NCBI RefSeq assembly: GCF_023806465.1
Contig: NZ_JAMSLS010000003.1
Span: 186,001 to 250,000, forward strand
Direction of reading: 5' to 3'
Origin: Thermomicrobium sp. CFH 73360
GTDB taxonomy: Bacteria > Chloroflexota > Chloroflexia > Thermomicrobiales > Thermomicrobiaceae
DNA length: 64,000 bases
The position numbers and the translations under genes were made by a program. Below, in pieces: positions 49,274-57,188 of this stretch (within the stretch, counting starts at the first letter, position 1; each line of letters begins with the position of its first letter). The notes below the pieces were generated by a model. It was given only the letters and a program-made list of their open reading frames with translations. It searched no databases and was not told where the DNA came from.

Positions 49274-49678
49274 ATGAAAGTTGCGTATGTGTTTGCCACG
49301 CCGCGAGCTGCGAGCTACAAGTTGGGGCAAATGATCCTGCCGCAACTTGAGGCGGGGACGCATGGGGTTGAGGTCGTCGGCATGTTCTTTTTCGATGACA
49401 ACGTCTTTGTCCTGCGGAAGGGCGACCCGATCGGCGAGCGGCTGGCGCGCATCGCGAAGGAGCAGGGAATCCTGCTCATGATGTGTGACATGTGTGCGCT
49501 GGAGCGGAACCTCGCGCAGGGGCAGCCGCGCTGGTGCGATCCGGTGACCGGGCTTGGGCGGCGAGAGCCGGCCGAAGTTCAGCCGGTGGACACGGTTGAG
49601 GGCGTACAGGTTGGCTGCTTCCCGGATCTCTACGCGGAGTTGGCGCAGAACCCGCCGGATCAGGTGATCACGCTCTGA
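49274..49678 (+). CDS. DsrE-family protein (SaoD-like)
   Basis: A 134-residue DsrE/TusD-fold protein. The N-terminus MKVAYVFATPRAASYKLG, the mid segment VVGMFFFDDNVFVLRKGDPI and the Cys pair in LLMMCDMCALER (about 75-78) fit DsrE-type sulfur-relay or redox proteins; I believe the closest named group is SaoD, but that rests on memory of the pattern. It may carry sulfur, or selenium/arsenic species, on cysteine. AAGGGG lies 7 bases before the ATG. A strong symmetrical hairpin follows the gene. Confidence 0.82.
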   Translation: MKVAYVFATPRAASYKLGQMILPQLEAGTHGVEVVGMFFFDDNVFVLRKGDPIGERLARIAKEQGILLMMCDMCALERNLAQGQPRWCDPVTGLGRREPAEVQPVDTVEGVQVGCFPDLYAELAQNPPDQVITL

Positions 49679-50802: not shown

Positions 50803-51261
50803 TCAATGCTGTCGCGGCCGCGCTGGTGGGCGAGCAAGCAATTCGTTCCACGGCAAGAGGTCACCTCCAAGTTCCGCCTGGCGCCGCTGTGCAGCGTCTT
50901 GGCCAGCAAAGGCGGCGATGCCGTAGCCCATTGGTGAACGGATGCTGGGACTCACGAGATACCAGGCGTTCTCGGCCTGGAGCCAGGCCTGCGTGTCAAG
51001 ATCATGAATCCATATGGCTGCCCAGGAGGGGCTGTGCTTCTGCCGGTAGGCGAGGAGACACCCGATATCGTCGAAGAGCACAGTCTCACCGTCGGCTGTG
51101 GTCGCTGCTGCGGCGAAGCGGGGGTCGGAAAGGATCATCCCGCACTCGGCGCAAGTATCGCGGCCGTAGCGGATCTGGGGCGGGGAAAGCTCGCGCTTCC
51201 GCTGGCAGGCGGCAAGCGGGATGGTGACGAGGAGTACAACAAGAAGCTGACGGCGCGTCAT
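50803..51261 (-). CDS. nosL: NosL copper-binding lipoprotein
   Basis: A 152-residue lipoprotein (lipobox LAAC, Cys 19) that delivers Cu(I) for assembly of nitrous-oxide reductase centres. The copper motif CAECGM is at 37-42, followed by FDDIGCLLAY and WIHDLDTQAWL, typical of NosL. The start overlaps nosY by 4 bases (ATGA); GGGAGG lies 7 bases upstream. It is the last gene of the nos run. Confidence 0.94.
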   Translation of the reverse strand: MTRRQLLVVLLVTIPLAACQRKRELSPPQIRYGRDTCAECGMILSDPRFAAAATTADGETVLFDDIGCLLAYRQKHSPSWAAIWIHDLDTQAWLQAENAWYLVSPSIRSPMGYGIAAFAGQDAAQRRQAELGGDLLPWNELLARPPARPRQH

Positions 51262-52085
51262 CGCAAGACCTCCCGGCGCAGAATGGCGTAGGTGGCGAAG
51301 CCACCAACAAGACTCCAGAGAAGGAGCATGCTCGCGAGGAGATGTGGCAGCGTCGCACCGAAGCGCTCGTCAGCATAGAGACCGGCAGGCCCGAGGAGTT
51401 CCAGCGTGCCAGCCAGGAGGCGTAAGGCAGCGATGCGATAAGCCTCGGTGGGATTCACGAGTGCGATTCCAAGGAGCCAAGAGGGGGGTAGGCGTACCGC
51501 GAGCGCGGTGCCCATCAGTCCGAGATTGCCGAGGAGCACAAGCACAAGCCAGAGACCGAGTGCCAAGCTGACAGCGGTACTGGTCCGACTGCAGCGACTG
51601 GAGAGGAGAAGACCGAGCGTGAGAGAAGTCCAGGCTAGCAGGATGGTCAGGCCGGTGAGGGCAAGGAAAGCAAGCGGGTCGGTTGCGCCGACGAAGAGCA
51701 AGAAAACCGCGCTCGCTCCGAAGCCGAGCGTGACTGCGGCGGCGAGTGCAAGGCCAATGCCAAGCGCCTTGCTGAGAAAGTACGCGCCGGTTCCGACCGG
51801 CTGGGCTAGCCAGAACTCAAGGGCACTGCGTTCACGGTCGCTCGCCAGCGCGAGAGCTCCGAGTGTCAGCCCCATTAGTGGGACGAGGAGGAGCATAAGG
51901 TTCACCAGGCTTGCTGCGGTACGTCCGAAGCCGCTGACCGGACTCGTGGCACCGGTGAGAAAAACCAAGAGCGAGAGCGCACTGCTCAGGACGAGGAGCG
52001 CGACGGCATCGGCCAGGAACCAGCGATTGCGCAGCGCGTCGCGGAGCTCCTTTTGGGCGAGAACGAGGACGGTGTTACCAGCCAT
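51258..52085 (-). CDS. nosY: NosY, ABC-type permease for NosZ maturation
   Basis: A 275-residue membrane protein with six main helices. The N-terminus VLAQKELRDALRNRWFLAD and the mid region LASDRERSALEFWLAQPVG match the ABC-2/NosY family. With NosF and NosD it forms the complex needed for sulfur/copper maturation of the CuZ site. The ATG overlaps the end of the NosD-NosF gene by 11 bases, and the 3' end overlaps nosL by 4. Confidence 0.93.
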   Translation of the reverse strand: MAGNTVLVLAQKELRDALRNRWFLADAVALLVLSSALSLLVFLTGATSPVSGFGRTAASLVNLMLLLVPLMGLTLGALALASDRERSALEFWLAQPVGTGAYFLSKALGIGLALAAAVTLGFGASAVFLLFVGATDPLAFLALTGLTILLAWTSLTLGLLLSSRCSRTSTAVSLALGLWLVLVLLGNLGLMGTALAVRLPPSWLLGIALVNPTEAYRIAALRLLAGTLELLGPAGLYADERFGATLPHLLASMLLLWSLVGGFATYAILRREVLR

Positions 52086-54429
52086 CGGTGACCTCCAACT
52101 GGAAATCTCGAACTTGGATACCCAGCCGGGCAAGCAGGAAAAACGGCTCTGCCTTCCGCTGGGGTGGAACGAGGACGCGGAGTCGCTGGTCCTCGCGATA
52201 GACAGCGAAGCCGTGCGCAGTGAGGAGATGTGTGGCTGGCTGGAGGGCATCGGCATCGAGTTCGAGGATGAGTGATTGGTGGATGTCGTGGCGCACCGGC
52301 AGGGCTGCTGCGCGTGACTCAGCGACGACGCGGCCTGCCTCGAGTCGCAAGACGCGCGTGGCGAGACGCCAGACGTCATCGGGACGATGCGAAGCGAAGA
52401 TGATCGTGCGTCCCGCCTCGCGAAGTTGTTGGAGGGCGGCCATAAGTTCCTCGCGTGCGGTCGTGTCCAGGTTCGCTGTTGGCTCGTCGAGCAGAAGTAG
52501 TGGTGGATCGCCAATTGTAGCCAAGGCGAGGGCGAGTCGCTGCTGCATGCCGCCCGAGAGTGTGCGTACTGGCTGATGCCACGTGTGCTGCAGGCCAAAG
52601 ACACCAAGTCGTTCCCATGCGCGCTCGAGTGGCTCGCCACGCAGGCGCGCAACGGTCGTCAAGAGCTCACCAACTGTCAGGTCAAGAAGTGGCAGTTGCT
52701 GTGGCACATACCCGACATGCGCTCGTACAGCTGGACCGTCCTGGAGCGGTGAATGGCCGAAGACAGTGACTGTACCACTGTAGGCAGTTCGGCCAAGTAA
52801 GCAGCGGAGGATGGTGGTCTTGCCAACACCGTTTGGTCCCCAGAGGGCGACTGCCTCGCCTGGTCGAACGCTGAAGCTCACATGATCGAGAACAAGGCGG
52901 CTCCCGAAACGCTTGGTGAGCCCATATACCTGCACAACGGCTGCGTCCGTGACGGTACACACAGCGGTTGCTGCGGAGGGGGCCACAGAAGCGAGTACCA
53001 CTGGCGCAGGTGGGCGGGGAGCCTTGGCCGCTTCTGCGAGCGCGAGCCGCGGCGATCTTCGGAGGGCAAAGAGGAAAGGCAAAGCGGCGGCAGGAAGCAA
53101 GGCCAGCGAGAGGAATGCGTCGGTACGGGATGGTGGAGAGACGCTCCATGGGAGCTCTGGCAACGGCGTTGGCTGAATGAGTGGAGCGGGATCGGTGAAG
53201 CGCGGTGCTGGCTGGAAGAGTGGAACAGCACGCGCAGCTAGATCGAGCGCGGAGGCGACAAGGCTGAAGCGGAAAAAGGCGAGCAACGGGGAGCGATCGG
53301 TGAGAACACTCGAAAGTGCACGGTTCTGGTACGGGAGATCGCCGATGCCGTTGCGGTCGGCATCATAGCCAGCGTAATCGCTCCAGAAGTTACCACGCCC
53401 GGAATCGGCCCAGGTGAGGTGGTCGAGCGTCCCGCCGCCTTGCGGTGCAGCTTGCTCCAGATTTTCCAGGAGTGTGTTCTCGAGGATGCGATTGGAACGG
53501 GTCGCTGGGCTGATCAGGAGGCCAACGTCGTTATAGGCGATCCAATTGCCTGTGATGTGGTTGATGACTCCCTGAGAGATCGGGGAATTATCGATGTAGA
53601 GTCCGACACGGTTGCGCAAAATGAGGTTTGCCTCAGTCACGACCCCGTCAGTTTCTTTGATGGCTAGCCCATATCCGGACGGCCCACGGTTGTGGAAAAA
53701 GACGTTGTTGCGGACGATCTGGCGGGCTCCGTACATCAAGTAGATGCCAACCGAATTGTCGCGGAGCACGTTCTGCTCGACAAGGCTGTCGCTCGAGTAC
53801 ATGAAGTGCAGGCCGTAACGCCCGCGCTCAACGACATTTCCTTGGAGGAGTGTTTGATCGGAGTACCAGACGATCACATCACGGCTGTCGCGTACGTGGT
53901 TATTGAGTATTTGGGCACGTGGACTATACCAGAGCTTAATGCCGTCACCACGTTGTGGTTCGGGGAGCGGCTTCCCGGCCACGAGGTTCCCTTTGACAAG
54001 TCCATCGGGGGCGTTCAGGAGCTGGATGCCGAAGAGACTGTCAAGAACCTGGTTGCCGACGATCTGGGCCCGTGGTGCGGTGACAAGGATGCCGGTGTCC
54101 TCGCGGTCGTGATTGGTGCCGCTGCCGCGGACGATGAATCCCTCGACACGGACATCGGGTGCGGCGACATGAAGGACGGTACCTTGCCCGCCGCCATCGA
54201 TTGCCGGCCAGTTCTCGCCGTACAGCGTCAGTGGGCGGTCGACGACGACCGGGCCGGCATAGACGCCGCCACGGACACGGATCGTTGCGCCGACCGGTGC
54301 GGTGGCGATGGCTTGCTGGACGTCACGCAGCGGGCACTCCGGGCAGACGAGGAGTTCGTTAGCGCGGACCTGGGGCGGCGTGACGAGCAAAAGCATCGTC
54401 AGCGTTGCGGCGAGAATCAGCCGGTGCAT
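52075..54429 (-). CDS. NosD-NosF fusion: extracytoplasmic beta-helix joined to ABC ATPase
   Basis: A 784-residue protein combining two normally separate NosZ maturation factors. Residues 1-24 are a Sec signal (MHRLILAATLTMLLLVTPPQ). About 25-375 is NosD: a parallel beta-helix with CASH repeats (GIQLLNAP, GRYGLHFMYSSDSLVEQN, NFWSDYAGYDADRNGIGDLP). A linker and one membrane helix (about 436-456) lead to NosF at about 500-784: Walker A GPNGVGKTT near 528, signature LSGGMQQRLALAL, Walker B LLLLDEPTANLD, H-loop ASHRPDDV. So beta-helix outside and ATPase inside are held by one polypeptide. The frame is continuous with no stop at the junction. The ATG at 54429 follows GGGGGTGACGCC. Confidence 0.92.
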   Translation of the reverse strand: MHRLILAATLTMLLLVTPPQVRANELLVCPECPLRDVQQAIATAPVGATIRVRGGVYAGPVVVDRPLTLYGENWPAIDGGGQGTVLHVAAPDVRVEGFIVRGSGTNHDREDTGILVTAPRAQIVGNQVLDSLFGIQLLNAPDGLVKGNLVAGKPLPEPQRGDGIKLWYSPRAQILNNHVRDSRDVIVWYSDQTLLQGNVVERGRYGLHFMYSSDSLVEQNVLRDNSVGIYLMYGARQIVRNNVFFHNRGPSGYGLAIKETDGVVTEANLILRNRVGLYIDNSPISQGVINHITGNWIAYNDVGLLISPATRSNRILENTLLENLEQAAPQGGGTLDHLTWADSGRGNFWSDYAGYDADRNGIGDLPYQNRALSSVLTDRSPLLAFFRFSLVASALDLAARAVPLFQPAPRFTDPAPLIQPTPLPELPWSVSPPSRTDAFLSLALLPAAALPFLFALRRSPRLALAEAAKAPRPPAPVVLASVAPSAATAVCTVTDAAVVQVYGLTKRFGSRLVLDHVSFSVRPGEAVALWGPNGVGKTTILRCLLGRTAYSGTVTVFGHSPLQDGPAVRAHVGYVPQQLPLLDLTVGELLTTVARLRGEPLERAWERLGVFGLQHTWHQPVRTLSGGMQQRLALALATIGDPPLLLLDEPTANLDTTAREELMAALQQLREAGRTIIFASHRPDDVWRLATRVLRLEAGRVVAESRAAALPVRHDIHQSLILELDADALQPATHLLTAHGFAVYREDQRLRVLVPPQRKAEPFFLLARLGIQVRDFQLEVTDGW

Positions 54430-54433
54430 GGCG

Positions 54434-55069
54434 TCACCCCCGTTCGGCGGAGCCGCGCAGACGCGCGGTGATGCCGACGAGTGCACTCAGAGCGGCGAGG
54501 ATGGCGAGGTAAAGGCCGCTGCCGAAACGCGTCTCGACCACGAATTGTCCAACGCGTCCTGTACCGAGCACGGGCGGTGTAAAGGGCTTAATCGCGCTTG
54601 AGAGTGCAGCGTGTGGATCGAGGTTATGGCCGAAGTACCAGAGCCAGTACTGGAGGTCAGCGACGAAGATCATTGGGAAGAGAACAACAAGCGTGGCGAG
54701 AAGTGCAGTCCACCGTCGCCGCAGTAGCCCAGCGAGAAGAGCGAGGAGTGCCAGAGCGGCGACGCCGTAGGGGGCGATGGCGCGCTCGAAGGTCGCTGCC
54801 TCTTCGAGCTTCATCATCCCGATGTAGTGATTGAGCCCGTTCACTTCTTGCACGTCACCAGCGAGCTTCGTGAGGTAGATCACGACACGGAGCCCGCCCG
54901 GGTATTGCGGGGCAAGCAGTGTCATGTGCCAGTACGGAAGCGCCAGTGAAGCTGCAAGCATGATGGCAGCGAGGAGAAAAGGAACGCGGTCACCGATGCG
55001 AGCGAGCACTGCGGCGAGTGGCCGCATGATGCCGGATCTGGTTGGTGTTCGGACAGCGGTGGTTGCCAT
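54434..55069 (-). CDS. Four-helix membrane protein of the nos cluster (NosB-like)
   Basis: A 211-residue protein with hydrophobic helices at about 29-47, 100-116, 121-140 and 184-202. Between the first two lies LNHYIGMMKLEEAATFERAI, and DLQYWLWYFGHNLDPHAAL sits after the third; His residues there could bind metal or heme. Clade II nos clusters typically carry a membrane protein (NosB) right after nosZ, and position and size fit; I infer but cannot prove identity. AAAGGA precedes the ATG at 55069. It lies 91 bases after nosZ and 4 bases before the NosD-NosF gene. Confidence 0.82.
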   Translation of the reverse strand: MATTAVRTPTRSGIMRPLAAVLARIGDRVPFLLAAIMLAASLALPYWHMTLLAPQYPGGLRVVIYLTKLAGDVQEVNGLNHYIGMMKLEEAATFERAIAPYGVAALALLALLAGLLRRRWTALLATLVVLFPMIFVADLQYWLWYFGHNLDPHAALSSAIKPFTPPVLGTGRVGQFVVETRFGSGLYLAILAALSALVGITARLRGSAERG

Positions 55070-55160
55070 GGTCACAATCCTTTCTCGACTCCGAAGGTAG
55101 CCAATTCTCGGGTCGAAGGGCCGGTGAGGAGATCTCCCCACTGGCCCTTCTGCTGCGGGA

Positions 55161-57188
55161 TCAGGTCGGCTTCACCAGGAAGTAGCCCATCATCTCGAGG
55201 TGCAGGGCGGAGCAGAATTCCGTGCAGTAGAACGGGAAGGTGCCTGGAATGTCCGCGACGAAGCGGATCGTCTGCGTTTCGCCCGGCTCGAGGCTCAAGT
55301 TGATGTTGTAGCCCCCGAGGGCGAAGCCGTGTGTTGCATCCTTGGCGCGCTCGATGTTGGTGAGGTGCCAGATGACCTCGTCGCCCTGCTCAACCTCGAT
55401 GAGATCCGGGCGAATCTGGCTGCGCAGCAGGACGGCCCAGATCTCCACGGTCTTGCCACGTCGCTCAATCCGCTCCTCACCGACCTTGAGGACAGCGTTG
55501 GGATCGACACTCTGGGTATGCGGGTTCCAACCCACCTCAGGATAAATCTCCCAAGCCTTGATCCGTTCGCGCTTGATGATCTGCGCGTAGTGTGGCTCGC
55601 CGATCCCGATCGGGCTGTCATAAAGCACGCGCATCGGTTGATTGGGTGCAATGGAGATCAGCTGTGCGTTCTGCGGCAGTAGTGGTCCAAGGCTGGCATA
55701 CCGGTCGACCGACCACTTGTTGTGCGCGACGAGGAAACGGCCGGCCGGCTTTGTAGTATCCCCCTCGGCAGCAGCCAGGTGGCCGATGTTGTACTGGACT
55801 GGCAGTTTCTCAACCAGCTTCCAACCGTCCTCGCGGTATGGCTTGCCGAGTGACCACTTGGCGACCGCACTATCCAGGAACAAGCTGGTGTAGGCGTAGC
55901 CCTGGTCGTCAAACTGGGTGTGCAAGGGACCCAGCCCCAGCTCGACCTGTGCCTCGACACACTGTTCAAATGGGAGTACTGGGATGCCATACTCATCGGT
56001 ATCCCAGTTGCCAGCCTGGATGGCCTGCTGGATCTTGGCAAAGCTGTACACGGTCACGTGCGGGTCGAGCTTCCCTGCCACAACAATGTAGTCCCCACCG
56101 GGTGTCACATCCACACCGTGCGGGCTCTTCGGCTCTGGGATCAGGAAGAGGACCCCCTCCTTTGCTGCGACATCCATGCGGATGACCTTGAAGCCGTTGA
56201 TGGTCTCATATTTGCCCGCTGCGATGAGTTCTTCGGCCTTCTTCCAATGGACGACATGGAGATAGTCCATATCGCGCTGGGTCGTGGCGATCTCCATTGC
56301 CGGTCGACCCTCTTGCAAACCAGGAATGGCGAGTTCGGTGTTGATCGAGTTCCAGAAAGCCCAGCCGTGAGATGGCCCCTTGCCCGCGTCGGCCAAGTCG
56401 TGCCAATACGGCGGTGTCTCAATGGCGAACGACTCCTCCGGGATGATGCGTCCTTTCTGGCGATCGAACTTCCAGAAGGTCAGGACGCCGCGATACTTCT
56501 CCTTGTACTCCGTGATCGGCGCGTAGACGCCGCCGAGCGGCACTGAGTACTGGTCAGCCTCGAGCACGTACTCGGTGTTGGGTGTCACGAAGCAGCCACC
56601 GTGCTCGTTGACCAGGAGGGGATTCTTGACGATTTGCTTGGTCTCGAAGTCGCGGAGGTCGATGACTGCGATGCGCCCATTGGCCTTATCGTTGATGAAC
56701 AGGAACTCGCCGTCATATTCGCCATTCGTCTCGCTCAAGGCTGGGTGGTGCGTATCGCCCCACAGGATCGGCTTGCCCTGAAAGTAGCCGCCCTCGAGGA
56801 CTTCGTTGGTGTAACCACCATAGCCATAGCCCTGCCACGGCTCGGGGCTGAAGACGGCGATGACCTTGAGAAGGCGCATCGACGGCAGACCATGAACTAA
56901 CACCTGGCCGCCGTGGCCGGTTGAGGAGAACATGACAAACTCGTCGTATTTGCCCGATGGCACGTAGGTCATCAGGGCTGCTGTGACATCTTCGGGCGTC
57001 AGCTGGCGCTGCTTGATGATCTCGTCAGCTGTGGCACCCAGCTTTGGTGTCTCCTCTTTGCGCTGTAGGACGCTGCAGCTCGCCAACAGCGCACCAGCGG
57101 AAAGTCCAGCCGCTGCACCCAGGAGCCCCCGCCGACTCACCTTTTGCTGACTGATCTGGAACGGTGGTCGCTCACGGTTCTCGGCCAT
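55161..57188 (-). CDS. nosZ: Nitrous-oxide reductase, clade II type
   Basis: A 675-residue copper enzyme reducing N2O to N2 outside the membrane. The CuA motif near the C-terminus is complete: Cys 655, Cys 659, His 663, Met 666 in CTEFCSALHLEMMGY. CuZ His candidates occur in GDTHHPAL, VNEHGGC, SPHGVDVTP, LGPLHTQF, AHNKWS and GEPHYAQ. The leader (residues 15-38) has twin arginines in VSRRGLLG and a lipobox-like LLASC, suggesting a Tat-exported, lipid-anchored protein; most clade II NosZ use Sec. Sequence order and nos gene order indicate clade II. AGGAGG lies 8 bases before the ATG. First gene of nosZ-nosB-like-nosDF-nosY-nosL. Confidence 0.96.
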   Translation of the reverse strand: MAENRERPPFQISQQKVSRRGLLGAAAGLSAGALLASCSVLQRKEETPKLGATADEIIKQRQLTPEDVTAALMTYVPSGKYDEFVMFSSTGHGGQVLVHGLPSMRLLKVIAVFSPEPWQGYGYGGYTNEVLEGGYFQGKPILWGDTHHPALSETNGEYDGEFLFINDKANGRIAVIDLRDFETKQIVKNPLLVNEHGGCFVTPNTEYVLEADQYSVPLGGVYAPITEYKEKYRGVLTFWKFDRQKGRIIPEESFAIETPPYWHDLADAGKGPSHGWAFWNSINTELAIPGLQEGRPAMEIATTQRDMDYLHVVHWKKAEELIAAGKYETINGFKVIRMDVAAKEGVLFLIPEPKSPHGVDVTPGGDYIVVAGKLDPHVTVYSFAKIQQAIQAGNWDTDEYGIPVLPFEQCVEAQVELGLGPLHTQFDDQGYAYTSLFLDSAVAKWSLGKPYREDGWKLVEKLPVQYNIGHLAAAEGDTTKPAGRFLVAHNKWSVDRYASLGPLLPQNAQLISIAPNQPMRVLYDSPIGIGEPHYAQIIKRERIKAWEIYPEVGWNPHTQSVDPNAVLKVGEERIERRGKTVEIWAVLLRSQIRPDLIEVEQGDEVIWHLTNIERAKDATHGFALGGYNINLSLEPGETQTIRFVADIPGTFPFYCTEFCSALHLEMMGYFLVKPT

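Follow-up and report, generated by a model that had tools for sequence, protein, structure and literature searches.

The minus strand of the window (the whole stretch of 64,000 nucleotides from Thermomicrobium sp. CFH 73360 that was analysed) carries a compact clade II nos operon in the order nosZ-nosB-nosDF-nosY-nosL, in which the nosD and nosF parts share one open reading frame. Its genes are listed in order of transcription:

55161..57188, minus strand: nosZ, clade II nitrous oxide reductase (TIGR04246, 928.5 bits, cut-off 625)
54434..55141, minus strand: membrane protein at the nosB position (true start maybe ATG 55069)
52075..54429, minus strand: nosDF, one frame of 784 amino acids (ATG at 54429, stop at 52075-52077)
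51258..52085, minus strand: nosY, permease (sole PDB match NosY, 7o0y_D)
50803..51261, minus strand: nosL, copper chaperone (PF05573, 50.9 bits)

Against TIGR04244, the TAT-dependent type, nosZ scored 390.7 bits, below the cut-off of 625. The membrane protein at 54434..55141 (minus strand) had no Pfam or NCBIfam match and is presumably NosB. A transmembrane NosB is mentioned in an excerpt of PMC13274427. nosY begins within the last 11 bp of nosDF, behind a strong Shine-Dalgarno sequence; nosL overlaps nosY by 4 bp, and Shine-Dalgarno pairing at the starts of nosZ, nosDF, nosY and nosL ranged from -9.9 to -11.7 kcal/mol. By eye, the N-terminus of NosZ (57040-57188, minus strand) looks twin-arginine (SRRGLLG) and is followed by a lipobox-like LASC; clade II NosZ is by name the Sec type. 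A SaoD/DsrE family protein (49274-49678, plus strand; NF040913, 209.9 bits, cut-off 152) adjoins the operon on the opposite strand.

The nosDF gene comprises 784 codons without an internal stop. In the list of open reading frames it appears as 52075..54486 (minus strand), 803 amino acids from a GTG; ATG 54429 is the better start because Shine-Dalgarno pairing there reaches -9.9 kcal/mol and a signal peptide follows directly. No second NosD was found elsewhere in the genome, and outside nosDF the strongest match to its NosF part was an ABC ATPase with 38% identity (141.6 versus 1765.4 bits). The following parts were assigned along the chain:

54361..54429, minus strand: signal peptide of the Sec type, residues ~1-23 (judged by eye)
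54334..54345, minus strand: CPEC, a CxxC motif at the N-terminus of mature NosD (residues 29-32)
53173..54318, minus strand: NosD beta-helix, residues 38-419 (TIGR04247)
53065..53127, minus strand: membrane helix, residues 435-455 (hydropathy and AlphaFold2 helix)
52942..53064, minus strand: Pro/Ala-rich flexible linker of ~40 residues, residues 456-496 (pLDDT mostly <50)
52078..52941, minus strand: NosF ABC ATPase, residues 497-784 (ABC_tran match)

The NosD part scored 403.1 bits with TIGR04247 (curated cut-off 300) and 145 bits with Pfam NosD; AlphaFold2 modelled it as a right-handed beta-helix with strands over residues 25-329, preceded by low pLDDT at residues 1-21, and Foldseek aligned it to 7o0y_A with a TM-score of 0.81 by target length. 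Residues following the membrane helix carry a net positive charge, which by the positive-inside rule marks the cytoplasmic side, and AlphaFold2 gave disorder at residues 454-494. In the NosF part, ABC_tran matched residues 514-652 with 102.8 bits, and the motifs Walker A (GPNGVGKTT in the window), LSGGM, Walker B (LLLLDEP) and the H-loop (SHR) are all intact in the alignment columns. Foldseek placed the NosF chains 7osf_B and 7o0y_B at ranks 1 and 3 and the NosD chain of the NosDFY structure at rank 8. When the NosF part was searched against the PDB by sequence, NosF was matched at 3e-34 and two-domain ABCA chains scored higher; among the NCBIfam models listed for the NosDF product (25 of 194), none except NosD exceeded its own cut-off. 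The ATPase is named NosF because of its place beside nosD, nosY and nosL. An earlier note on this DNA had described a continuous frame running from NosD through one membrane helix into NosF, and this description holds for all three parts (TIGR04247 and ABC_tran matches, hydropathy and AlphaFold2). Its proposal that NosD is secreted and covalently linked to NosF across the membrane agrees with the predicted topology, in which NosF is cytoplasmic.

In 20/20 Thermomicrobiales rows, whether fused or separate, mature NosD carries CxxC near its N-terminus, as it does in 25/113 rows of the alignment overall; the motif was not found in the proteobacterial rows of the same 113-row alignment. It could possibly be a copper or disulfide site.

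Conservation of the frame was examined at increasing distance from the window. The closest genome (G119) encodes a protein 95% identical to NosDF and a further one (G124) a protein 84% identical; in these three species of the genus the gene has an equal length of 2352 nt without the stop. A class-wide search yielded a NosD match in 25/158 genomes. The whole fused frame was found at nine loci (G000, G119, G122, G124, G117, G118, G114, G112 and G103), and two more were fused with a contig end inside NosF (G123 and G116). At a further two the contig ends before NosF, in the linker past the membrane helix (G120) or inside NosD (G140), and two were scored as uncertain because the reading frame changes within NosD or the linker (G102 and G127). 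Separate nosD and nosF genes were present at nine (G146, G100, G150, G154, G147, G155, G156, G030 and G021), and one genome had a NosD-like match without NosF (G008). Within the window's family, where 11 genomes from three genera with the genes had a NosD match, eight loci were whole and fused, two were cut inside NosF and one in the linker; none of the 11 had separate genes, and wherever the nos locus reaches NosF the frame is fused (10/10). The earlier note had named a frameshift or missing stop at the junction, or homologues all having two genes, as grounds for rejecting the fusion; neither holds. Frame changes in the nosDF gene do occur in the relatives L022 and L026, and in L065, but the same open frame is common to the nine whole class loci and to unrelated assemblies, and its length is equal in three species of the genus; an artefact of sequencing or assembly was rejected on this conservation and is given practically no weight. 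The fusion of NosD and NosF in one frame is confirmed as an observation.

The same fusion, for which a search in the class and in other nos clusters had been proposed, reaches well beyond Thermomicrobia. In a sample of 400 Chloroflexota genomes searched with TIGR04247 at E <= 1e-30, 25 were NosD-positive and 11 of these 25 had NosD and NosF in one frame; this sample alone gives an unbiased share of fused loci, for Chloroflexota. A scan of GTDB species genomes was queried with fused proteins and the best 80 of 546 loci were kept, so that fused loci are over-represented. From the 130 loci L009-L138, four incomplete ones (L013, L032, L033 and L100) and 13 duplicates were removed, leaving 113, of which 44 have a fused frame in this set enriched by the scan query. 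Named fused loci belong to Chloroflexota (14), Planctomycetota (6), Armatimonadota (2) and Tectimicrobiota, Omnitrophota and Bipolaricaulota (1 each), and the remaining 19 of the 44 to coded or nameless phyla; fused frames thus occur in five phyla besides Chloroflexota, mostly in metagenome bins, whose individual phylum labels may be mistaken. Where there was room to see it, nosY adjoins the fused gene in 22/22 loci (in L058, one of the 22, both share a frame that has an ambiguous codon at the junction).

Trees of both parts were built by quick searches without bootstrap. On the NosD tree (112 rows, three not counted; L065 dropped for a NosD spread over two frames) the fused or separate state changes at least 16 times, at least six of them forced by well-supported branches, and shuffled states averaged 33 changes; on the NosF tree (108 rows, four not counted; five more left out for a short NosF match) it changes 10 times, at least four of them forced. 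L022 and L026 were uncertain and not counted, L061 was scored as fused on the NosD tree and uncertain on the NosF tree, and L058 was left out of the change counts and of the internal-start scan described below. The fused genes of the window's family take two places, one with the window's genus and its sister genus g5 and one with two g4 genomes (G112 and G114), which fall among genes of other families on the NosD tree. Because 16 changes are needed on the NosD tree, the phylogenies argue that the state has changed repeatedly in evolution. Separate NosD proteins have a C-terminal hydrophobic or membrane segment in 55/69 rows, and in many loci with two genes the nosD frame overlaps that of nosF; among fused linkers, 37/44 attain a mean hydropathy of 1.6 over 19 residues, and of those below it (L035, L039, L044, L061, L120, L124 and L126) only L061 is without anything like a membrane helix. 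Since most separate NosD proteins are already anchored at the C-terminus, joining would need little: an anchored NosD that lost the stop before nosF, by a lost stop or a small deletion, would become one chain with the correct topology, and such a loss may have happened, or been undone, several times. The change counts do not tell gain from loss, and a single ancient fusion followed by many splits would produce a similar pattern, the more readily where an internal NosF start had been kept; with proteobacterial genes as outgroup, however, the deep branches are all separate, and each split would require both a new stop and a new start, which makes this history rather unlikely.

Between the window and G119 the linker shows two synonymous and eight non-synonymous codon changes in 39 codons; it drifts freely: no selection was seen on its sequence, and what stays constant is the open frame with its length. 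A possible second product, free NosF initiated inside the linker, was assessed by scanning for a start codon with Shine-Dalgarno pairing and ranking the linker's best start against same-length stretches of the same frame. The linker start was in the top 10% for 13/43 fused frames with any start and for 21/43 with ATG, compared with 34/67 and 41/67 for separate nosF genes; the 43 fused rows are not independent, and the control stretches often have no ATG, which favours the ATG count. Sister species share the linker ATG and a purine stretch (L021/L026, L018/L019 and L015-L017), although in L018/L019 the purine stretch also encodes Gly-Gly. In the window the same scan found no ATG in the linker, and the best start codon was a GTG at -3.2 kcal/mol, far weaker than the -9.9 to -11.7 of the operon's gene starts; within the genus 0/5 rows were in the top 10% (ranks 0.31-0.96), 4/5 had no usable ATG, and the strongest internal start was a GTG at -6.1 in L012, inside the membrane helix. 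Part of the fused genes thus seem to keep a NosF start, but those of the window's genus do not.

These data bear on the composition of the complex. The sole solved NosDFY complex is D1F2Y2, as follows from PDB chain counts: NosD is present as 16 chains in 16 entries, NosF (commonest sequence) as 30 chains in 15 entries and NosY as 34 chains in 17 entries, and 7o0y holds one NosD (chain A) and two NosF (chains B and C). The window shares with this complex (PDB 7o0y series) the NosD beta-helix, the NosF ATPase and NosY, by sequence and fold; there, NosD and NosF come as distinct chains at 1:2 with two NosY, whereas here one chain gives 1:1, with a helix and linker between the parts. The earlier note is right that well-studied clusters have nosD and nosF as separate genes. 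Its suggestion that a covalent link sets the stoichiometry of NosDFY is contradicted, for the known complex, by the 1:1 ratio of the fused chain, and fixed geometry does not agree with the predicted disorder after the membrane helix; a linker that is disordered and freely drifting tethers NosF but does not position it. A machine built from the fused chain must therefore differ, with two NosD per NosY dimer, or the chain must be processed. Three solutions can be envisaged: a complex with two NosD, a cut in the chain, and additional NosF that is initiated internally.

We favour, with a probability of roughly 0.55, the reading that the single nosDF chain supplies the NosD and NosF parts of NosDFY, likely as D2F2Y2, and matures CuZ of NosZ. 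NosDF would be exported by Sec and its beta-helix would fold outside; the single membrane helix would stop transfer and leave NosF in the cytoplasm, where two NosF would dimerise beneath the NosY dimer, and the operon context suggests that the assembly serves CuZ in NosZ, which is encoded close by. With no recognisable internal start in the window's genus, the single chain should be the sole product here; no separate NosF is apparently made in this lineage, and the complex would most likely be D2F2Y2 with two tethered NosD. Set against this reading are the D1F2Y2 composition of the only solved complex, from which two NosD on one NosY dimer would have to depart, the freely drifting linker, the many fused relatives that are metagenome bins, and the fused frame of L061 without a membrane segment. 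Proteolysis in the exposed linker would release NosF from an anchored NosD and restore an ordinary D1F2Y2, the fusion then coupling synthesis only. The disordered, unconstrained linker and the 1:2:2 ratio of the solved complex would suit such a cut, but 1:1 synthesis alone does not yield 1:2, no site was seen by eye in the linker and the frame stays open in all readable family members, so that we regard cleavage as improbable. Internal initiation would give NosDF and free NosF from one gene, and NosDF with NosF and two NosY would make 1:2:2; the top-ranked linker starts and the ATG and purine stretches kept between sister species speak for it in other lineages, yet the weak GTG, the missing ATG and the ranks in the window's genus leave it quite improbable here. 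For the window's lineage D2F2Y2 is hence our first choice and cleavage the second. A wider proposal is that evolution repeatedly arrived at a symmetric D2F2Y2 whose pair of tethered NosD serves the two CuZ sites of a NosZ dimer, and that lineages with an internal start mix to 1:2:2 instead; it is possible though doubtful.

Among the known biological sinks of the greenhouse gas nitrous oxide NosZ is the principal one, and its copper site needs NosDFY. The fused chains make it testable whether one NosD per NosF pair is required, as they must either work as D2F2Y2 or be processed; if the former is true, the architecture would be different from the asymmetric D1F2Y2 machine. For structural studies NosDF also offers one chain in place of two, from an organism presumed to be thermophilic. 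The solved NosDFY structure is from Pseudomonas stutzeri. That origin fits a passage of PMC13068155. According to an excerpt of PMC3475470, all five NosD of Bacillus azotoformans end in a membrane segment; these tail-anchored proteins and the separate Chloroflexota genes have the same C-terminal membrane helix, but unlike in the window their NosF (and NosY) are encoded by separate genes. Searches of open-licence PMC papers turned up no report of a NosD-NosF fusion. The parts and the pathway are known; by those searches the fusion appears to be new, and as an observation it is solid, recurs across lineages and sits uneasily with the established subunit ratio.

Further frame arrangements were seen among the 113 loci. 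L061 (130-2202, plus strand) has a fused frame with a 26-residue linker without a membrane segment, which would put NosD and NosF on one membrane side and is perhaps an artefact of assembly or a deletion. In L058 (3278-7051, plus strand) NosB, NosD, NosF and NosY appear to share a single frame of 1258 codons, which contains ambiguous bases; the four-gene frame was not accepted, as a TNN codon between NosF and NosY may hide a stop. A relative of the window's nosB-place protein lies in one frame with NosD in 12/113 loci (L050, L057, L058, L080, L084, L085, L102, L103, L129, L135, L137 and L138), and NosB, NosD and NosF share one frame in L050 and L057 (no ambiguous bases) and probably in L058. 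These frames likewise join operon neighbours, the partner being the upstream membrane protein that is separate in the window, and the recurrence of such joins, with nosB, nosD and nosF in one constant order, gives an indication of which parts are near each other.
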